A DNA stretch of 13,124 bases, taken from a bacterium. GTDB lineage: Bacteria > UBP14 > UBA6098 > JAFGQG01. A program made the translations under genes and the position numbers. Below are positions 2,797 through 13,124 of this stretch, in pieces. The stretch is from contig JAFGGQ010000009.1 in NCBI GenBank assembly GCA_016930435.1, forward strand, positions 1-13,124. The letters run 5' to 3'. The notes below the pieces were generated by a model. The model was not told where the DNA came from and ran no database searches. It saw only the letters and a program-made list of their open reading frames with translations. How positions within the stretch are numbered: position 1 is the first letter of the stretch; each line of letters starts with the position of its first letter.

Positions 2797-2865
2797 ATGA
2801 ATATTAAAAGGTATTTGTTTTTTGCAGGTCTATTTTGGCTGGTATTTTCAGGGTCGCTCTTTGCT
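2797..2865 (+). other. Signal peptide of the giant protein
   Basis: Residues 1-23: positively charged N-region (MNIKR), a long hydrophobic aromatic core (YLFFAGLFWLVF), then SGSLFA followed by VESDP. Cleavage is most likely after Ala23. This is a Sec-type signal without a lipobox Cys, so the mature protein enters the periplasm or beyond. Confidence 0.85.
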
Positions 2866-5800
2866 GTAGAGAGTGACCCGGTTGAATTACCAGGTTCCGG
2901 CCATATCATGCAGGTACATCAGGATACTATCTGGGGTTACTGGGGAAATTGTATTGGATTTCCTCTGAACTGCCTTAGCACTATACCGGTAGGCCTGCCC
3001 TCAGTTTATACGGAATGGGAAGTAGGAATCTACAGGACTTGTTTCAATCCACTTACCGATAATTTCACGAACAAGATCGTTCCACTGGAATTTTCCATAT
3101 TTGGGATCCCTGATGACGCTGTCATTGAGTATGTTACCCTGGGCCTGAATACCGATAGCACTTACTCCAATCATTTGGCTCCGCCTTTTCATATTAAAGC
3201 CTATGATATGCTGGATGCCCGTCCATCCACAGGGCTTTCAGTTACAGTCTATACGGATGCGGTTTCCGGAAATACTTACTTCACAAGCTCAACCATTAAT
3301 ACTGGTGTATATTCCTTTCATCTCAATGCCCAGGCTACCACGGATATGCAGAATCAATTAACCCAGGATTGGTTTGCGGTTGGCATTAACCTTGACGAGA
3401 CCGTTATAGGTTCTACCGATACAACCTATTTGACCCTGAACAACACGGCTTCAGAACATTTTCTTATAGTTGGCTACATGATCCCTGTCGAGGTTACCAT
3501 ACAGAACAGTTTCAGCGGTGGACAGGTAATTGTGGATTGGGATTATAAGGATTCGCCCTTTGATACCGTTTGGCATCCTGAAGAATTGCATACCATTGCA
3601 GTGGATTCCATTCAAACCCTGCCCAGCTATGTCCGGTATCTTTTCCGGGGCTGGAGCGATGAAGGCAGCCGAATCCACCAGATCCAACCGGAATCGGATA
3701 CCGTGTTCACTGCATATTATGATTCCCTTTTCAGGCTGCTGGTAATGTCAGATTATGGAATAGCCTATGGTTCCGGCTGGTATCTTCCATTAACAAGCCG
3801 TTTATTCTGGGTAACTCCCGAGACGGTTTACGTGGGAGGAGTCCGCCACGCTTTCCAGGGCTGGATAGGTACCGGCAGCGGCTCCTATACAGGGCCCTCG
3901 GATTCCGCTATGGTAACCATGAACGAACCTCTCATAGAGCGCGCTCAGTGGGATACCTCCTATTTCCTTGCCCTTGATGATTCAGGCTGCGGAGCGGGAG
4001 AACCCTATCAAACCGGCGCCGGATGGTATGCCCCCGATACCTGGGCTAATATCGCTACCTCCGATTCCGTTTATGATACTCTCTCCGGTGAGTGGTTCTT
4101 CTTTCACCATTGGACCGGCGGCGTGTTTGCCGATTCGATGAACCGGAGTACTCAAGTATATGTAGATGGACCTCTTCAGGCTATTGCGGTTTACCATCCA
4201 CCCGTCAGACTATGGGTATTCCCGCCGGATACTACTGACGGAACGCCAATGAGCGTGGTTCAAATTCCGGTAATATTCGAGGCTACTGTACCATTCCCCA
4301 TTGATTCCTTTGGTTTCAGTATTTATTTTGATAATTCCATCCTTAGTTTTGTTTCGGTAACCGAAGCCTTGATCGATTGGGATACCCTGGAGGCATTCGA
4401 TCTTTCCTCCGGCCCGGCAGGTCAGGTGATCGCGGGAGGTGGCTCAATACTACCCGAAACGGTTTATTCCCCGGATACCCTCTTCTACTTCAATTTCAGT
4501 GTAAGATTAGGCGTTTCCGGTGAATGCTTACTGCAGTTCGGTGATTTTCTGGGCGATCTTGCGGGAGCTATAACCTACGACGGCATTTTCAGGGTGGAAA
4601 CTGCTCTTCATAATGTTATGATCAGAACATCATTTGGCGGTGGTCAGGTTTATGTGGATGGCACCTCATTCCCCTCACCATATATAGATACCTGGACCTC
4701 CGGTGAATTTCATGAGATAGGAGCAGATTCACTTTATGAACCCGCCCTGGGAGTAAGATTAAAATTCGATTCCTGGAGCGATTCCGGGGAACTCGTACAC
4801 GATGCAGCAGTTATATCCGATAGCATTTTCACAGCTCTCTATGATACCATACTGGGACTGCTTGTGGAGAGCAGCTATGGAGTTGCCTATGGCAGCGGAT
4901 GGTATGAAAAGGGGAGTGCCGTACCCTTCTGGGTTGAGCCGGAAACTATTTCCGTTTCAGATAGTACTCAATTGATATTCACCGGTTGGGACGGCCTGGG
5001 ATTGGGAGCCTATACGGGACCGGATAATCCCGCTAATTGTGTGATGGGAAGTCCCATCCAGGAGACAGCCGAATGGCAGAGCGAACATTATATCGGTCTC
5101 GATTTCCTTGGTTGCGGAACAGCCATCCCCCTGCAAGCGGGAGAAGGGTGGTATGAGCAGGATACTTGGGCGGCAATTTCTACACCGGATAGCGTTTCCG
5201 ACGGGGTTCGCTGGTACTACTTTCAGTGGTGGCTGGGGGGTACCTTTACAGATCGTTATGCATCATCCACCAATATACTGGTAAATGCGCCCCATACTGC
5301 GACCGCAGTGTACTCCGGAGAACCGGGTTATTTTAGGGTTAGCCCACCCGACACCGTGGTGGGAACCCCCGGTGGTCTGATATTAATACCCGCTATATTC
5401 TCAGCATCCGGACCCATGGAAATGGACACCGTTCTCTTTGATTTTAACTATGATGCTAATATCATCACCTTTCTGAGAATGCAGGAATCTGCCGTCGATT
5501 GGGATACCGTATTGGGCTTTGATAATTCAGTTGGCGATTCCGGGCTGGTTACGGTGATCGCAGGAAACTCTTATGGCTCATTTCTCTTGTTCCCTCCTGA
5601 AACTCTCTTTTATTTCGTGTTCCGGGTAAATCCGGGGGTCTCCCGGCAGTCAATTTTACATTTTGATAATTTTCTGTTCGACCTCGCCGGGGCAACAACT
5701 GCCGATGGCGTTTTGATCATCAGGGGCAGGGTGGAAGCTGTTGTGGACGTGAATTTTGAAGGGGGATCGGTATGGGTAGATGGCACCAGTTATTCAACCC

Positions 5801-8800
5801 CATATTACGCATCGTGGCTGCTGAACTCCGAACATCTGCTCGAAGCGGATAGTTTGCAGCATGGCCTGCCCGGAGTGCGAATGGTGTACCGGAATTGGAG
5901 TGATGGCGGTAACCGGGCTCACCTGGTAACCGTTAATACAGATACATCCTTTATTGCCTACTATCACCCCCAGTTTATGTTGACAGTGGAAAGCCCATTC
6001 GGAACTACTGAAGGTTCCGGCTGGTTTGAAGAAGGAGATACTGCTAATTTCAGAGTGTTTCCTGAAACATTGAGCTTTCCTTTGGCTGAACACTACTTTG
6101 TAGGTTGGGAAGGATTCGGGGACAGCTCCTACAGCGGCCCCGATAACCCCGCCTGGTGTTTGATGTACAGCCCGGTAAGGGAACGGGCAAGATGGACCCA
6201 TAATTATTATTTGCAACTTGCTTATAGCGGCTGCGGACTGGCTATCCCTGCACAGACTGGCGAAGGATGGTACATGGAAGGAACCTGGGCTGGTATTACA
6301 ACCGACAGCATCGTGTACGATGGCGCGGATACCTTTTATTTCCTTTACTGGGGCGGTGCAACCTTTGCTGAGCCCTATGAGCATTCCACAATGGCTTATG
6401 TTGATGCCCCCGGTCTGGTCGCTACTGCTTATTACGGAACCAGTCCCGCATTCATTGCCGTGGGACCTCCTGATACTACCTACGGAGCTTCCGGAGAATA
6501 TGTCCTGTTGCCTGTAATCCTGCATACCGGAGAACCGGTAGAAATGGATACTATTGCCCTTAATGTACTCTTCTCGGCAAATATCATCGATTATCTTATC
6601 GCCATACGGGCTTCTGTTGACTGGGATGTGCTGCTGGGCACCGATCTTTCCTCAGGCCCGGCAGGAAAAGTAAATGTCTTTGCCGCTTCTGCAGCACCTA
6701 ATACGTTAATGGATAAAGATACCCTCTTCAATCTGGTTTTCTTCGTCAATGGCGATTCCGGAGAAACCGGGGTCCGTCCTGATAGTCTAAAATTCGACCT
6801 GAATGCTGCTCTTCCAATTAGAGGAATTTTCATTATCGGCGAGGTAGTGAACGTTCTGATAACTACCAGCTTTGGAGACGGTGAAGTAATAGTGGACGGG
6901 ATTCGTTATGGCGCCCCTCATCTGGAAACCTGGGCAGTGGGCTCTGAACATCTGATCAGGGCAGACCTTTTCCAACCATATAACCCGGATACCCAGTATG
7001 TATTTAGGAACTGGAGTGACGGCGGAGCCATGGGGCATTATGTCACCGTACTCTCGGATACACTTTTTGTAGCTAATTACGGTTATCAATTCCGTCTCAC
7101 AGTGGATAACGGCGGCCATGGAACAACGTATGGAGATGGATGGTATAATGAGGGATTACGCGTACCCTTCAGGGTGGAACCTGAAACCGTTACTGTAGGT
7201 GGAATACGCTATATATTCATGAGGTGGCAAGGGAACGGTACAGGGTCTTACAGCGGCCCGAATAATCCAGCCAGCTGTGTTATGAATGCCGCCATCACCG
7301 AATTGGCATTATGGAACACACAGTATTACCTTAGCCTGAATTATTCCGGGTGTGGCGCAGGAATACCCTACCAGGAAGGAGAAGGATGGTACAATGAGTT
7401 GGCCTGGGCCCCTGTACTTAGTGACGAGATAGTCTATGACGGCGATAACCGCTATCACTTTAACTACTGGACCGGAACCTTATTTGCCGATTCCTCCAAC
7501 TGGGAAACAGCAGCGCTGGTTGATTCAGTGCGTACTGCTACTGCATTTTATTCTGCCTTCGAAGTCAGCCCACCGGATTCCCTGTTCGCCCTTCCCGGTG
7601 AGATCGTCAGGATTCCCATCTTCCTTTATAATAATGAGATTATGTATATCGATACGGTCTGTTTCGATTTCTATTTTAACAACAATCTGCTAAGCTTCCT
7701 GGGGATGGTTCCTGGGGATATCCCCTTCGATAGTATTTATGGTATAGATAACAGCGCGGGTCCTTTCGGAAATATTGAAACAGGGGCATTTTCAGGGCTG
7801 GAGCATGAAGTGGATCCTCCTGTAATAGTGTTTTTTCTGCTCTTCCGGGTACGCCCCGGTACCGGGTTTTCACGATTGGAATTGGATAACCTAAGTTGCG
7901 ATTTGACTGGTGCCTACACCCGCCAGGGGTGGCTGGTCGTTACTTCTCCCGTTGAAGTTACAATCACCTCTGAAGCCGGAGGAATGGTCTATATGGATGG
8001 GGTAGGCTACCCTTCACCCCTTGATACACTTTGGGCGATAGGCTCACCGCACCTGATAGCCGTGGACCCTGTGGTTCCGGTCGCCGATGACAGCATTCGA
8101 ATGGTATTTGTCCGGTGGTCTGACGCAGGCGCCCTGGAACATACCGCAAGCGCGATAGGCGATACCCAGTTCACAGCTTTTTATGTACTTCAATATCATC
8201 TCTGGGTTGCCAGCCCTCTGGGGTCCACTTCCGGCGCAGGATGGTATTTTGCCGGGGATAGCGCATATATCTCAATAGACCCCGATTCTATCATGATCGG
8301 GGATAGCATTATGTATATTTTTGATGACTGGATAGGTACCGGTGATATTTCTTATACCGGCCCCGATAATCCCGCCATGGTAATAGTGAACAGCCCCATC
8401 GTTGAAGTCGCTAATTGGGAACACTGGTATTACCTAACGGTGGATAACGGCGGTCATGCTACAGCTAACGGGGAGGGCTGGTACCCTGCCGGAGCTCTCG
8501 CTTACTTCTCCGTGGACCCGGAAACGGTTATGGTGGATGCTACACACCGGGTAACCTTTTCCGCCTGGGATGGTTTCGGTCCAGGCGCATACAGCGGTTC
8601 GGATAACCCCGCCAGTGTCATAATGAATAATCCCGTCAGGGAAGTCGCCTCCTGGTTGGACCAATACTATCTGACCATTCTAAACGGAGGTTATGGTACC
8701 GTTACTGGTGAGGGGTGGTACACTTACGGTGATTCCGCTTTGTTCTATATCACCCCTACGGTATTCGATGTTGACCGTGATATTCGCTATCTCTTCGATG

Positions 8801-11800
8801 GTTGGGCCGGAACCGGCGAGTGGGCTTACAGCGGCCCTGAAAGCCTGGCTTACGCTCATATTATGGAACCTTGCGAGGAGGAAGCGCAGTGGACGCTGCA
8901 GTATTACCTAACCGTTAACAGCCCCCATGGCATTCCCTATGGGCAGGGCTGGTATAACGCCGGATCTGAAGCAAATTTCGGGGTTGATCCCGATACCTTT
9001 GACGTTGGTCCCGGCTCAAGATTCCAGTTCGCACTTTGGAACGGAACCGGTTCCGGCTCTTATACAGGGCCCGAAAACCCCTCCGGGTGCATTATGAACG
9101 GACCAATTACCGAAGATGCTGCATGGGACCATCAATTCTATCTCACCCTGAATTACTCCGGATGCGGCGGGGCAACGCCTATCCAAAACGGGGAAGGATG
9201 GCATCCCGCCTTCAACTGGACCCCAATCAGCACTGAAGATATAGTATATTCGGGAGCAGTTCGTTATCATTTCGACCATTGGGAGGTGGATTCCGGCGGG
9301 GTGATTATGGATGATACCTTAATCCTGACCCAGACATTTATGGATACGGCTCATACTGCTACGGCTCGCTATTCCGCTTTTGAAGTCAGCCCCCCTGATA
9401 CCACTTACGTCCTGGCAAATGATACCGTTGATATCCCCATAATCCTTTATAATAACCTATCTTTGGATATTTTAAGTGTAGGATTGAACCTGGATTATCC
9501 CCACCATATTCTGACCTTCCTGGGGATAGAAGGCTTGCGCGAGGGTATTCCCTGGACCACCATCATCGGAACCCCTATGGATAGCAATACAATCCAGATC
9601 TATGCAACTCAATCGGGGACAACGGTTGATCCTCCTGAGACCCTCTTCTTTGCTAAATTCTATGCTCATGCAGGTTTGGCGGGTATCGGTGAATTGAATT
9701 GTTATAATCTGATTTACAGCCTGGCTGGTGCTGATAGCCGTCCCGGTACCGTCATCGTTCAGGGTTCGGTAACTATCACTGTACAACTGGATTTTGCCGC
9801 CCCCGGCGCCCAGGTTCGGGTTGATGGAGTCTGGCATGATTCGCCATACACGGCAACCTGGCTTTCCGCATCTTTGCATGAGATATCTGCACCTCCTTAT
9901 TTCAATATCGATCCTGAAACACGGCGGCGATGGGATAACTGGAGCGATGGGGGTACTATTACCCATAATATTGCCCCTGTGGTTAACGATACCTTCACCG
10001 CATCATACCAGCTGCAATACTATCTTTTTGTTAATTCTGCCCGGGGAACCGTATCCGGTCAGGGTTGGTATGATGCAGGGAATCCTGCTAACTTCGGGGT
10101 TACACCCGATAGCATAGAAGCAGGGGGAACCCGCTATATATTCCAATCCTGGACAGGAACAGGGAGCGGGTCATATTCCGGCTCCAATAACCCGGCAACC
10201 GTTAATATGAATAATTCCATTACGGAAGTTGCAAACTGGCAAACGCAATACTATCTCACCATACTCAACGGCGGAAGAGGGTCAGTTATCGGTTCAGGCT
10301 GGTTCCTTGCTGGATCGCATCCTGAATTTGAGGTTACTCCCACCATTATCGATTCCACTGCGACTATACGATACATCTTTAAGCAGTGGACGGGTATTGG
10401 ACCCGGCTCCTATACGGGCAGTACCAATCCCGGATCATGTACTATGAACGGTCCGGTAACCGAAACGGTGGTTTGGACCAGGCAATATTATCTAACCGTG
10501 GATAATGGCGGCCGTTCAACCCCGGCTGGTGAGGGCTGGTACGACCAGGGCGTTCTGGCAGGATTCAGCATCGCCCCGGGAATAGTGGACTCTACAGCCG
10601 ATATCCGCTTTGTATTCAATGGTTGGACAGGATTGGGTTCCGGTTCATACACCGGCAGCGCTAATCCAGGCGAATGCACCATGAACGGCCCAATAACCGA
10701 AACCGCCAACTGGCGAATACAGTATTACCTCCGGGTTACCTCCGATTGGGGGGCGGTATCCGGTCAGGGATGGTATAATGCCGGGGTCATCGCTAATTTT
10801 GGTGTAACCCCTGATACAGTCCTGGAAACCGGAACCAGACACATCTTCCAGCGCTGGGATGGAACAGGCGATGCAGCATATTCCGGCCCCCTCAATCCCG
10901 CTTCCTGCACGGTCAATGGCCCTCTAAATGAACAGGCTATCTGGACCAATCAGTATTACCTTACAGTATATAACGGTGGTTATGGCACCCCGTCCGGCGA
11001 AGGTTGGTATGATTCCGGCGCTATAGCAGTATTTTCAATCTGGCCTGAGACCATTCCCGTTACAGACAGTGTGAGAGTATTATTTTCCCGCTGGGCGGGT
11101 ACTGGCCCGGGCGCTTACAACGGCCCCGATAACCCGGCAGGATGTTATATGAATAACCCTATCCGCGAAGAAGCCATCTGGAATACACAATATTACTTGA
11201 CAATATTGTCAGAATATGGTATAACTTACGGCGAGGGTTGGTATAGCCAAGGTGCCACTGCGGAATTTTGGATTGAGCCTGAAACGGTTAATGTTCTGGA
11301 TTCCCGCTTTGTTTTCGGCCAATGGTCAGGTTTTGGTGATGAGAGTTATTCCGGTCCCATCAATCCCGGGCAGTGCGTTTTGAATGAGCCTGTAACAGAA
11401 GAGGCCTTGTGGTCCGAGGAAGTTTTTCTGGATCTGGATTATAGCGGCTGCGGGGCGGCGGTCCCCGATCAATGGGGAGAAGGGTGGTACCCGCTGGGTT
11501 CGCTGGTGGATATCTATACTGCTCATGTTATATATGATGGCGGAACCCGATATTCCTTCGATCATTGGTCTGGAGCAGTATTCACTGATCCTGCAGATTG
11601 GCATACTACGCTAACTGTGGACAGTACAATCCTCGTGATCGCCCATTACGCTGCATTCGAGGTCAGTACTCCGGATACTTTCTGGGGGTATCCCGGCGAT
11701 ACCGTTAATATCCCCATAATTTTGTATGATGATTCTATTTTCAGCCTGGATTCCCTGGGATTGGATTTCTATTATGATGATTCGCTTCTGCATTATGTTG

Positions 11801-13124
11801 GGATACTTGAGAGTGCGATTGCCTGGGACAGTTTATTTGCCTGGGAGCCGCCCACCATGTCTTCTGACAGTCGAATAAGGGTTCGCGCCTACAGCGCCAC
11901 ACCGGTAATAACCTCTCCCCCGGAAACCCTCTTCTTCTTCCGGATGGAAGTGGACACCGGAGCCTCCGGGTACTGCCCACTCCTGCTTAGAAACCTGAGT
12001 CATGATCTTGTTTCTGCTCAGACTGTAGATGGAATCTTTATCACCAATACGAATGTGGAAGTGGTTGTTCAGAATCAGTTTGGCGGGGATTCCGTCTATG
12101 TTGACGGAATCAAATATGCTTCTCCATATACGGTTATCTGGGCTCCGGGCACTCCCCATGAGATCTCGGTTGATCAGGTGATCCCAGAAGATGCTGGTGT
12201 CCGTTATGACTTTACCGTATGGAGTGATGGCAGAATCAGGACCCACATTGTTACCGCATTGAATGATACTACCTTCACCGCTTATTTTGACAGGCAATAC
12301 CTATTTGGAGTATTCAATCCGGACGGCGGCGATACCCCAGTGCCTCCGGTGGGCTCGCACTGGTATGATGAAGGGTTCAATGTACACGCCTATGTAACTT
12401 CCCCTGATGATTTAAACCACCTTTACTGTGCGGGTTATAATGGCACCGGTGATCTGGCTCCTGGCGGGACCGGAAGCGACGTGGAATTTGTAATCACCCA
12501 GCCTACTGTTTTGGAATGGATCTGGCAGCAGCAGCTTTATCTGGTAGTCGTTTCTGAATACGGCACTCCTGATCCACCACGTGATACGACCTGGTACAAC
12601 CCCGGTGAAGAGGTAGCCGCAATGGTGGATAGCATAGTTGTATTCGGATCTGATATAAGGCATATCTGCACCGGCTGGTCAGGTGCAGGATCCGTACCCG
12701 TAAGTGGGGTTGGCACTCTGGTTATATTTGTTATTAATGATAATTCTTCCCTTGAATGGCAATGGGATGAGCAGTTTTACCTAAACCTGGCATATTCCGG
12801 TACGGGCGGTACGCCGGTAGCGCAGACCGGCGAAGGATGGTACGATCGTGCTGAATGGGTTGATATTGAAACTCCGGGTTCGGTCTCATCAGGGGATGGG
12901 GTAAGCTACTTCTTTAATTACTGGCGCTCCAACCCACCTGGCGCAACGTTCTCCGATTCATCTCTTACCGTTTGCCAGGTCTTTTTAGATACCCCCTATG
13001 TGGCTATTGCCGTTTACCAGCAAGGAGTTAGAGTAGCTGTCATTAAAGAACCAAGGGAAGCTTACGGGTCCATCCTGGTGGACTCATTGGACTATCCCGG
13101 GGCAGATAGTATCCTGGTCTGGTT
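2797..13124 (+). CDS. Giant secreted modular repeat protein with cohesin-like domains (3' end outside window)
   Basis: One open frame of 3442 complete codons with no stop, truncated by the window end. The start ATG2797 follows a perfect Shine-Dalgarno and opens a signal peptide (residues 1-23), so the protein is exported. Next comes a unique beta-rich domain (about 24-229), then seven super-repeats of order B - A(n) - A' - C. B (about 80 aa) carries VDG...SP...W and W-S-D...H. A (about 78 aa) carries G-x-GWY, W-x-G-x-G, a Y-[ST]-G-P-x-NP-like stretch and an MN-x-P-like end. A' is an A variant with SGCG. C (about 133 aa) has the cohesin-like pattern PPDT..PG..V.IP...YD...L...TLF...F. B and A/A' resemble InlB-B-repeat/Flg_new-type small domains. 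By inference it is a surface scaffold, stalk or adhesin. No catalytic motif, dockerin, SLH, LPXTG or type IX sorting domain is visible. It probably has its own promoter. The exact partner and anchor are unknown. Confidence 0.93.
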   Translation, partial: MNIKRYLFFAGLFWLVFSGSLFAVESDPVELPGSGHIMQVHQDTIWGYWGNCIGFPLNCLSTIPVGLPSVYTEWEVGIYRTCFNPLTDNFTNKIVPLEFSIFGIPDDAVIEYVTLGLNTDSTYSNHLAPPFHIKAYDMLDARPSTGLSVTVYTDAVSGNTYFTSSTINTGVYSFHLNAQATTDMQNQLTQDWFAVGINLDETVIGSTDTTYLTLNNTASEHFLIVGYMIPVEVTIQNSFSGGQVIVDWDYKDSPFDTVWHPEELHTIAVDSIQTLPSYVRYLFRGWSDEGSRIHQIQPESDTVFTAYYDSLFRLLVMSDYGIAYGSGWYLPLTSRLFWVTPETVYVGGVRHAFQGWIGTGSGSYTGPSDSAMVTMNEPLIERAQWDTSYFLALDDSGCGAGEPYQTGAGWYAPDTWANIATSDSVYDTLSGEWFFFHHWTGGVFADSMNRSTQVYVDGPLQAIAVYHPPVRLWVFPPDTTDGTPMSVVQIPVIFEATVPFPIDSFGFSIYFDNSILSFVSVTEALIDWDTLEAFDLSSGPAGQVIAGGGSILPETVYSPDTLFYFNFSVRLGVSGECLLQFGDFLGDLAGAITYDGIFRVETALHNVMIRTSFGGGQVYVDGTSFPSPYIDTWTSGEFHEIGADSLYEPALGVRLKFDSWSDSGELVHDAAVISDSIFTALYDTILGLLVESSYGVAYGSGWYEKGSAVPFWVEPETISVSDSTQLIFTGWDGLGLGAYTGPDNPANCVMGSPIQETAEWQSEHYIGLDFLGCGTAIPLQAGEGWYEQDTWAAISTPDSVSDGVRWYYFQWWLGGTFTDRYASSTNILVNAPHTATAVYSGEPGYFRVSPPDTVVGTPGGLILIPAIFSASGPMEMDTVLFDFNYDANIITFLRMQESAVDWDTVLGFDNSVGDSGLVTVIAGNSYGSFLLFPPETLFYFVFRVNPGVSRQSILHFDNFLFDLAGATTADGVLIIRGRVEAVVDVNFEGGSVWVDGTSYSTPYYASWLLNSEHLLEADSLQHGLPGVRMVYRNWSDGGNRAHLVTVNTDTSFIAYYHPQFMLTVESPFGTTEGSGWFEEGDTANFRVFPETLSFPLAEHYFVGWEGFGDSSYSGPDNPAWCLMYSPVRERARWTHNYYLQLAYSGCGLAIPAQTGEGWYMEGTWAGITTDSIVYDGADTFYFLYWGGATFAEPYEHSTMAYVDAPGLVATAYYGTSPAFIAVGPPDTTYGASGEYVLLPVILHTGEPVEMDTIALNVLFSANIIDYLIAIRASVDWDVLLGTDLSSGPAGKVNVFAASAAPNTLMDKDTLFNLVFFVNGDSGETGVRPDSLKFDLNAALPIRGIFIIGEVVNVLITTSFGDGEVIVDGIRYGAPHLETWAVGSEHLIRADLFQPYNPDTQYVFRNWSDGGAMGHYVTVLSDTLFVANYGYQFRLTVDNGGHGTTYGDGWYNEGLRVPFRVEPETVTVGGIRYIFMRWQGNGTGSYSGPNNPASCVMNAAITELALWNTQYYLSLNYSGCGAGIPYQEGEGWYNELAWAPVLSDEIVYDGDNRYHFNYWTGTLFADSSNWETAALVDSVRTATAFYSAFEVSPPDSLFALPGEIVRIPIFLYNNEIMYIDTVCFDFYFNNNLLSFLGMVPGDIPFDSIYGIDNSAGPFGNIETGAFSGLEHEVDPPVIVFFLLFRVRPGTGFSRLELDNLSCDLTGAYTRQGWLVVTSPVEVTITSEAGGMVYMDGVGYPSPLDTLWAIGSPHLIAVDPVVPVADDSIRMVFVRWSDAGALEHTASAIGDTQFTAFYVLQYHLWVASPLGSTSGAGWYFAGDSAYISIDPDSIMIGDSIMYIFDDWIGTGDISYTGPDNPAMVIVNSPIVEVANWEHWYYLTVDNGGHATANGEGWYPAGALAYFSVDPETVMVDATHRVTFSAWDGFGPGAYSGSDNPASVIMNNPVREVASWLDQYYLTILNGGYGTVTGEGWYTYGDSALFYITPTVFDVDRDIRYLFDGWAGTGEWAYSGPESLAYAHIMEPCEEEAQWTLQYYLTVNSPHGIPYGQGWYNAGSEANFGVDPDTFDVGPGSRFQFALWNGTGSGSYTGPENPSGCIMNGPITEDAAWDHQFYLTLNYSGCGGATPIQNGEGWHPAFNWTPISTEDIVYSGAVRYHFDHWEVDSGGVIMDDTLILTQTFMDTAHTATARYSAFEVSPPDTTYVLANDTVDIPIILYNNLSLDILSVGLNLDYPHHILTFLGIEGLREGIPWTTIIGTPMDSNTIQIYATQSGTTVDPPETLFFAKFYAHAGLAGIGELNCYNLIYSLAGADSRPGTVIVQGSVTITVQLDFAAPGAQVRVDGVWHDSPYTATWLSASLHEISAPPYFNIDPETRRRWDNWSDGGTITHNIAPVVNDTFTASYQLQYYLFVNSARGTVSGQGWYDAGNPANFGVTPDSIEAGGTRYIFQSWTGTGSGSYSGSNNPATVNMNNSITEVANWQTQYYLTILNGGRGSVIGSGWFLAGSHPEFEVTPTIIDSTATIRYIFKQWTGIGPGSYTGSTNPGSCTMNGPVTETVVWTRQYYLTVDNGGRSTPAGEGWYDQGVLAGFSIAPGIVDSTADIRFVFNGWTGLGSGSYTGSANPGECTMNGPITETANWRIQYYLRVTSDWGAVSGQGWYNAGVIANFGVTPDTVLETGTRHIFQRWDGTGDAAYSGPLNPASCTVNGPLNEQAIWTNQYYLTVYNGGYGTPSGEGWYDSGAIAVFSIWPETIPVTDSVRVLFSRWAGTGPGAYNGPDNPAGCYMNNPIREEAIWNTQYYLTILSEYGITYGEGWYSQGATAEFWIEPETVNVLDSRFVFGQWSGFGDESYSGPINPGQCVLNEPVTEEALWSEEVFLDLDYSGCGAAVPDQWGEGWYPLGSLVDIYTAHVIYDGGTRYSFDHWSGAVFTDPADWHTTLTVDSTILVIAHYAAFEVSTPDTFWGYPGDTVNIPIILYDDSIFSLDSLGLDFYYDDSLLHYVGILESAIAWDSLFAWEPPTMSSDSRIRVRAYSATPVITSPPETLFFFRMEVDTGASGYCPLLLRNLSHDLVSAQTVDGIFITNTNVEVVVQNQFGGDSVYVDGIKYASPYTVIWAPGTPHEISVDQVIPEDAGVRYDFTVWSDGRIRTHIVTALNDTTFTAYFDRQYLFGVFNPDGGDTPVPPVGSHWYDEGFNVHAYVTSPDDLNHLYCAGYNGTGDLAPGGTGSDVEFVITQPTVLEWIWQQQLYLVVVSEYGTPDPPRDTTWYNPGEEVAAMVDSIVVFGSDIRHICTGWSGAGSVPVSGVGTLVIFVINDNSSLEWQWDEQFYLNLAYSGTGGTPVAQTGEGWYDRAEWVDIETPGSVSSGDGVSYFFNYWRSNPPGATFSDSSLTVCQVFLDTPYVAIAVYQQGVRVAVIKEPREAYGSILVDSLDYPGADSILVW
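2866..3486 (+). other. Unique N-terminal beta-sandwich-like domain of the giant protein
   Basis: About 207 residues (24-230) found once in the window, occupying the place before the first B module. The pattern PLEFSIFGIPDDAVIEYVTL near residues 97-116, later LQ-type and WFAVGINL stretches, and the end EHFLIVGY recall bacterial jelly-roll/DNRLRE-type domains. Those read roughly 'F.l..IP..a.I..a.L.l' and end in a 'P.L.V.Y' strand. Three Cys (residues 52, 59 and 82) are present. A carbohydrate-binding or capping role is possible, but the family match is only by eye. Confidence 0.5.
3487..4599 (+). repeat. Super-repeat unit 1 (B1-A1-A'1-C1)
   Basis: Modules by approximate position: B1 3487-3720 (VIVDWDYKDSP, then FRGWSDEGSRIH); A1 3721-3960 (YGSGWY, WIGTGSGSYTGP, VTMNEP); A'1 3961-4197 (DDSGCGAGEP, TGAGWY, HWTGGVFAD); C1 4198-4599 (cohesin-like: PPDTTDGTP, VQIPVIF, IYFDNSILSF, SPDTLFYFNF, final AGAITYDGIF). 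A1 has no Cys in the position where later A modules have 'NP..C'. This is the basic 1.1-kb unit with one A module. Confidence 0.85.
4600..5727 (+). repeat. Super-repeat unit 2 (B2-A2-A'2-C2)
   Basis: B2 4600-4842 (GGGQVYVDGTSFPSP, FDSWSDSGELVH, SDSIFTALY); A2 4843-5085 (YGSGWY, WDGLGLGAYTGPDNPANC); A'2 5086-5313 (FLGCGTAIP, GEGWYEQDTW, ATAVY); C2 5314-5727 (cohesin-like: SPPDTVVGTPGG, IPAIF, FNYDANIITF, PPETLFYFVF, LAGATTADGV). C2 is one of the clearest cohesin-like copies, with intact N-terminal strand, YD motif and TLF strand. Confidence 0.85.
5728..6840 (+). repeat. Super-repeat unit 3 (B3-A3-A'3-C3)
   Basis: B3 5728-5964 (GGSVWVDGTSYSTP, YRNWSDGGNRAH, TDTSFIAYY); A3 5965-6204 (GSGWFEEG, WEGFGDSSYSGPDNPAWC); A'3 6205-6435 (AYSGCGLAIP, GEGWYMEGTW, ATAYY); C3 6436-6840 (cohesin-like: GPPDTTYGASG, LLPVIL, VLFSANIIDYL, VDWDVLLG, KDTLFNLVFFV). 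A3 has GWF in place of GWY. Module order and length match units 1 and 2. Confidence 0.85.
6841..7947 (+). repeat. Super-repeat unit 4 (B4-A4-A'4-C4)
   Basis: B4 6841-7080 (GEVIVDGIRYGAP, FRNWSDGGAMGH, SDTLFVANY); A4 7081-7320 (TVDNGGHGTTYGDGWY, WQGNGTGSYSGPNNPASC); A'4 7321-7551 (NYSGCGAGIP, GEGWYNELAW, YWTGTLFADS); C4 7552-7947 (cohesin-like: SPPDSLFALPG, RIPIFLY, FYFNNNLLSFLG, VIVFFLLFRV). C4 has PPVIVFF where the other copies have a TLF strand, and two internal Cys. Confidence 0.85.
7948..9765 (+). repeat. Super-repeat unit 5, expanded (B5-A5..A8-A'5-C5)
   Basis: B5 7948-8184 (GGMVYMDGVGYPSP, FVRWSDAGALEH). Four tandem A modules follow: A5 8185-8427 (SGAGWYFAG), A6 8428-8664 (DNGGHATANGEGWY), A7 8665-8901 (LNGGYGTVTGEGWY) and A8 8902-9135 (YGQGWYNAGSEANFGV). 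A'5 9136-9372 (NYSGCGGATP, GEGWH). C5 9373-9765 (cohesin-like: SPPDTTYVLAN, VDIPIILYNN, LDYPHHILTFLG, PPETLFFAKF). A'5 has His for Tyr in the GWY motif. The unit is about 700 bp longer than units 1-4, entirely through the extra A modules. Confidence 0.85.
9766..12048 (+). repeat. Super-repeat unit 6, most expanded (B6-A9..A14-A'6-C6)
   Basis: B6 9766-10008 (QVRVDGVWHDSP, WDNWSDGGTITH). Six tandem A modules follow: A9 10009-10248, A10 10249-10485, A11 10486-10722, A12 10723-10953, A13 10954-11190, A14 11191-11421. All have GxGW[YF] and a near-canonical SY[ST]G..NP..[CV].[MVL]N stretch. A'6 11422-11649 (DYSGCGAAVP, GEGWYPLG, HWSGAVFTD). C6 11650-12048 (cohesin-like: STPDTFWGYPGD, VNIPIILYDD, FYYDDSLLHYVG, PPETLFFFRM). 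At about 2.3 kb this is the longest unit. A10 and A11 look like the closest pair (IDSTATIRYIF / VDSTADIRFVF). Confidence 0.85.
12049..13017 (+). repeat. Super-repeat unit 7, divergent (B7-A15-A16-A'7, no cohesin-like module seen)
   Basis: B7 12049-12288 (GGDSVYVDGIKYASP, VWSDGRIRTH, DTTFTAYF) is canonical. A15 12289-12534 and A16 12535-12774 are strongly diverged. The GxGWY motif becomes SHWY or TTWY preceded by proline-rich insertions, and the SYTGP..NP stretch is lost. A'7 12775-13017 keeps TGEGWY but has SGTG in place of SGCG. The sequence directly after A'7 does not start like a C module. Confidence 0.7.
13018..13124 (+). other. Start of an unassigned module at the window end
   Basis: The last 35 codons include VRVAVIKEPREAYGSILVD and later GADSILVW. 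They lack the PPDT..PG...IP start of a cohesin-like C module, which is expected at this point of the super-repeat. The pattern V.V.V....I.VD......VW is closer to the beginning of a B module, so an eighth unit may start here with C skipped. Too little is visible to be sure. Confidence 0.3.

Follow-up and report, generated by a model that had tools for sequence, protein, structure and literature searches.

A giant cell-surface protein of approximately 3,800 residues, assembled from about forty small modules, is encoded in a little-known bacterial phylum, UBP14, which is listed as Candidatus Idrufiota and occurs in sediments of hydrothermal origin and in wastewater (PMC11382960). A surface protein rich in repeats would be expected to gain or lose them quickly, whereas this protein has kept exact module counts at about one third sequence identity. 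Accordingly, it was concluded with moderate confidence that the protein is a rod serving as a spacer of fixed length, not a length-tunable stalk. Moreover, the length of the rod and the positions of its six cohesin modules are probably under stabilizing selection, which was favored over a neutral explanation by a modest degree and not more.

The window, i.e., the whole stretch of DNA that was analyzed, is an entire contig of 13,124 bp. A single open reading frame on the forward strand spans it from the ATG at 2797 to the contig end at 13124 and is still open there; thus, the giant gene lacks its C-terminal end here. A ribosome-binding site, AGGAGGT, is located at about 2782, just 5′ of the ATG. 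The frame begins with a signal peptide, MNIKRYLFFAGLFWLVFSGSLFA (2797–2865, forward strand), which was read from the sequence, followed by an N-terminal domain with a predicted CBM-like jelly roll (2866–3486, forward strand). Upstream on the same strand are hslU (155–1513), coaD (1518–2021), and a gene for a secreted protein of 215 aa that belongs to no known family (2018–2665), which sits between coaD and the giant gene and is kept beside the latter only in the nearest relative. The synteny of hslU with the giant gene was likewise found in the nearest relative only. As the genomic neighborhood of the giant gene differs between families while the inner module order is unchanged, the conservation belongs to the protein itself.

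When the frame was cut at its recurring landmarks, the module string N-[B-A-A′-C]x4-B-A4-A′-C-B-A6-A′-C-B-(2)-A′-B was obtained, with n = 1,1,1,1,4,6,2. The sequence-only reading had described the same counts, coordinates, and unit sizes, all of which were reproduced. In total, one N-terminal domain, seven complete B modules and the start of an eighth, 16 modules labeled A, seven A′, and six C were counted. All units lie on the forward strand. Unit 1 (3487–4608, 1122 bp) consists of B (3487–3729), A (3730–3963), A′ (3964–4203), and C (4204–4608), and unit 2 (4609–5730, 1122 bp) of B (4609–4851), A (4852–5088), A′ (5089–5325), and C (5326–5730), the last with a predicted cohesin fold. Unit 3 (5731–6846, 1116 bp) comprises B (5731–5973), A (5974–6207), A′ (6208–6447), and C (6448–6846), while unit 4 (6847–7950, 1104 bp) comprises B (6847–7089), A (7090–7326), A′ (7327–7551), and C (7552–7950). 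In the case of unit 5 (7951–9768, 1818 bp), B (7951–8193) is followed by four A modules (8194–9138), A′ (9139–9372), and C (9373–9768), and in unit 6 (9769–12054, 2286 bp), B (9769–10017) is followed by six A modules (10018–11424), A′ (11425–11649), and C (11650–12054). Besides the segmentation, units 1 and 3 to 6 are backed by their conservation in orthologues and unit 2 by its structural model.

Modules of the same type in the protein of the window share approximately 24–61% identity at the amino acid level and about 60% at the DNA level; adjacent A modules share 58–64% DNA identity with exact matches of at most 10 bp. Tandem Repeats Finder reported zero repeats in the window, because at such low DNA identity it is blind to them, and the repeats are visible at the protein level only. 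A collapse of repeats during assembly is unlikely, as adjacent modules are only about 60% identical in DNA and independent genomes agree. In the module phylogeny, A′ formed one clade (SH-aLRT 100), which bore out the earlier distinction between A and A′.

The seven-fold repeat that had been described was correct for units 1–6 but not for the seventh unit, which is the start of a shared C-terminal cassette. This segment (12055–13026, forward strand, 972 bp) consists of B (12055–12297), a dyad of modules Xa (12298–12534) and Xb (12535–12777), and A′ (12778–13026), without C. Xa and Xb group in a clade of their own, distinct from A (SH-aLRT 99); this separation, together with the alternating dyads in paralogues, ruled out that they are ordinary A modules (A7a/A7b). 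The absence of C in unit 7, which had also been pointed out, was confirmed, as A′7 is directly followed by an eighth B, of which the contig end leaves only the initial 32 residues (13027–13122, forward strand). Since all full-length orthologues continue with B-B-B-T at this place, a loss of C by truncation was ruled out.

To define the range of the protein, 98 genomes were searched, and all orthologues fell within the class of the window (UBP14/Ca. Idrufiota), in genomes that are MAGs or of unknown origin. Full-length frames of 3,725–3,839 aa were found in eight further genomes and partial ones in four more. Module HMMs built from the window recovered the same module types, boundaries, and order in these independent orthologues, far beyond chance. 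Up to contig ends, the common string in 13 genomes from four families was N-BAPC-BAPC-BAPC-BAPC-BAAAAPC-BAAAAAAPC-BXXP-BBB-T, where P is A′ and X denotes the unit-7 modules; the HMMs miss or relabel a few tail B modules, and the aligned tails are nearly equal in length. No gain or loss of a module was seen in the 13 genomes over every unit observed.

The global alignment was collinear by module, with identities of 32–42% between families and 48–67% within families. According to per-pair permutation tests, the modules match position by position in most between-family pairs; the tests were not significant in some far pairs, namely, G002–G008 for A and C, G002–G009 for B, and G000–G009 within the six-A array. 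The per-pair tests were used because the mean identity of A modules, 39% at both the same and different positions, is an unfair comparison in which the genome pairs differ. As modules at the same position are for the most part orthologous, both duplication layers proposed in the sequence-only reading, i.e., a duplication of super-units and a local amplification of A, which are plausible, are older than the family split.

Under the length-tuning explanation, the number of A modules varies between lineages and sets the reach of a stalk, and A had indeed been taken as the one module free to vary in number. On comparing the orthologues in 13 genomes from four families, zero variation was found. 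Six A modules were present in unit 6 in 10/10 genomes showing the whole array, and four A modules were present in unit 5 in 13/13 genomes showing that array. These counts ruled out length tuning by A at the species and family levels, and the explanation as such has become extremely improbable. What speaks for it comes from the paralogues of the superfamily, which carry one to six dyads of related X modules. The cassette B-(ab)n-A′-B-B-B-T ends several other giants of the window's genome and its relatives, and the number of dyads differs among the paralogues (1, 2, 4, 5, or 6; the HMMs give a few dyad members the other letter). Therefore, length was varied between paralogues at some time. In the one orthologue group of such a paralogue that was tested, the C127 type, twelve X modules, i.e., six dyads, were constant in ten genomes. 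Among the giants with the cassette, those on contigs C127 (two copies), C94, C13, C147, C137, and C106 of the window's genome, G000, are 1,270–2,750 aa long and carry two to six dyads each. Separately, a 3,643-aa relative (L089, G001:C189) showed an irregular long alternation of A and b-type modules, AAAAAAA-P-bAbAbAAbAAbAbAbA.

The fixed count could also have arisen by neutral freezing, in which the modules are too diverged for intragenic recombination and the constant count reflects a lack of mutation instead of selection on length. The low DNA identity and short exact matches of adjacent A modules, with no tandem repeat in the DNA, agree with this, as does the observation that, among Periscope-type proteins, the greatest variation goes with the most similar repeats (PMC8201768). 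However, the deletion of a whole module needs no long identity, and yet none was seen in ten lineages. Moreover, the A modules were recently homogenized in one genome of family f2 (G002, orthologue L053), where A5a and A5b are 81% identical in both protein and DNA and the mean identity of A modules within the protein is 52%, compared with 39% between families. As the counts there are still four and six, modules were exchanged between neighbors without a net change in number. Neutral freezing was accordingly considered somewhat unlikely, and stabilizing selection on a rod of fixed length is the reading we prefer.

The predicted structure is consistent with such a rod. A model of B2-A2-A′2-C2-B3 was obtained with AF2 from 26 alignment rows, with a pLDDT of 94.7 and a pTM of 0.62. 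The predicted strands run unbroken across the B|A (residues 72–87) and A|A′ (150–167) junctions, which suggests a rod free of linkers. In this respect, the stalk-like build proposed earlier is in line with a model that is very confident by its pLDDT. In a PDB fold search with unit 2, C2 (model residues 240–374) matched cohesin 5nrm_A with a Z of 15.6 and an rmsd of 2.2 Å over 128 aligned residues. The top rows were all cohesins, among them the archaeal non-cellulosomal cohesin 2xdh (Archaeoglobus), and the match list was filled by cohesin to such an extent that the folds of A, A′, and B were hardly covered. C is thus predicted to have the cohesin fold of type I. Against the Pfam cohesin profile PF00963, the protein of the window scored 17.5 bits, below the cut-off of 24.1, and an orthologue (L066) scored 29.4 bits, above it; single C modules gave no Pfam match. 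In the case of A, five of 16 modules matched the divergent InlB B-repeat (PF18998) weakly at E ≤1 (best E 0.00047), compared with one of seven A′ modules (E 0.028) and no B module. The hhalign values were 94.6% for A and A′, 74% for A and B, and 12.5% for A′ and B, and a common origin of B and A appears likely from these profiles. When A, B, A′, N, and T were compared by sequence with the PDB, no credible match was obtained.

With cohesins in the stem, a cellulosome-like scaffoldin had to be considered, in which six cohesins dock dockerin-bearing enzymes and B, A, and A′ are spacers. The type I fold of C in six copies and an N-terminus that is CBM-like in fold would suit this function. However, the dockerin domain PF00404 was absent from the window's genome and exceeded the cut-off in only 1/17 genomes of the class, while the positive controls were detected. 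The sole match lies at G004:C19:987–1121, in a 1,127-aa frame. As dockerins are nearly absent, there is probably no cellulosome. Moreover, C is the least conserved module, with 26.5% identity between families compared with 34–39% for B, A, and A′. Overall, a scaffoldin is quite improbable.

Regarding attachment, full-length orthologues end, after B-B-B, in a terminal domain of about 145–150 aa, T. In the window's genome, at least 11 proteins, from 240 aa to giant size, terminate in T; short T-ending proteins of 240–631 aa are located on contigs C2, C76, C11, C167, and C180 of G000 (L096 and L098–L101). T was detected in 17/17 genomes of the class and, outside the class, in one genome with a weak match. 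No Pfam match was found for T, and in two full-length orthologues (L066 and L071) the type 9 sorting domain PF18962 was not matched, both proteins ending in T instead. The window's genome encodes SprA and >100 Por_Secre_tail (PF18962) domains, a large type 9 secretion repertoire in UBP14. Export through the type 9 secretion system (T9SS) is hence available to the organism, and T is not a known T9SS sorting domain. Judging from its C-terminal position, T may act as an anchor or sorting signal, and the phylum possibly has in it a new type of C-terminal domain for sorting or anchoring.

At the other end, the best PDB fold matches of the modeled N-terminal domain were a chondroitin-sulfate CBM (8wab, Z 14.4) and an alginate CBM (7vbo, Z 13.0), with the next rows at about 10. 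In fold, the domain thus resembles CBMs that bind acidic polysaccharides, and polysaccharide binding may be its function. Taken together, the protein would be exported, perhaps through the T9SS of the genome, and held at the surface via the C-terminal T. The stem would project as a stiff rod that carries six cohesin stations in set positions, and the N-terminal tip would bind acidic polysaccharide. Length and cohesin positions would then have to match a counterpart whose dimensions do not vary, for example a layer of the envelope, the lattice of a sheath, or proteins that act as partners.

The fixed-length reading includes the special case that the protein is a subunit of an S-layer, a sheath, or an extracellular lattice that needs exact dimensions. 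The giant size, the dimensions fixed over a large divergence, and the several paralogues, each with its own dimensions and one common C-terminal cassette, are in line with a lattice. However, not every genome of the class has the gene, and a putative lattice subunit was judged unlikely. The giant was missing from three genomes of the class, of which two have a completeness of 96% or more, and thus the protein is not essential in the phylum. G003, G006, G012, and G005 of the class showed no giant or only weak or fragmentary matches. A tentative and rather doubtful proposal is a molecular ruler, in which the counts 1,1,1,1,4,6 would encode the exact spacing of the six cohesins as well as the overall length of a surface structure particular to the phylum. 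The ruler would have stayed the same since the ancestor of the class, and T would be a new C-terminal export or anchor domain of the phylum.

The giant offers a natural case for asking what keeps so large a surface protein at one length. It also suggests that these bacteria, known from genomes alone, have an envelope structure and a family of C-terminal domains that are both undescribed; a literature search for UBP14 surface proteins found no paper.

Among known systems, the Periscope Proteins (SasG, Rib, and Sgo_0707/SHIRT) resemble the predicted build of this protein in that they expose tandem arrays of small folded domains, which form a rod and bear a binding domain at the N-terminus. Their repeats are near-identical and change in number between strains (PMC8201768), whereas the modules here are 24–61% identical, with 58–64% DNA identity between adjacent A modules, and their count is constant across families. 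The InlB B-repeat proteins (PF18998) are close through those A modules that match the profile, A and A′ falling under one profile; the match is weak, however, and the protein has three specialized subtypes in a fixed order, interspersed with cohesin modules. Scaffoldin and non-cellulosomal cohesins (PF00963; 2xdh) are comparable to the six C copies in predicted fold, but here no dockerin partner was found, and C is the fastest-diverging module, set between InlB-like modules. The N-terminal domain is similar in predicted fold to the alginate and chondroitin-sulfate CBMs (7vbo and 8wab) but only 12–17% identical to them, with three invariant cysteines and a moderately confident model (mean AF2 pLDDT 74). 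Similar to the T9SS C-terminal sorting domain PF18962, which occurs beside SprA in the same genome, T ends many otherwise unrelated secreted proteins; in contrast to that domain, T has double the length, matches nothing in Pfam, and hardly occurs outside the UBP14 class.
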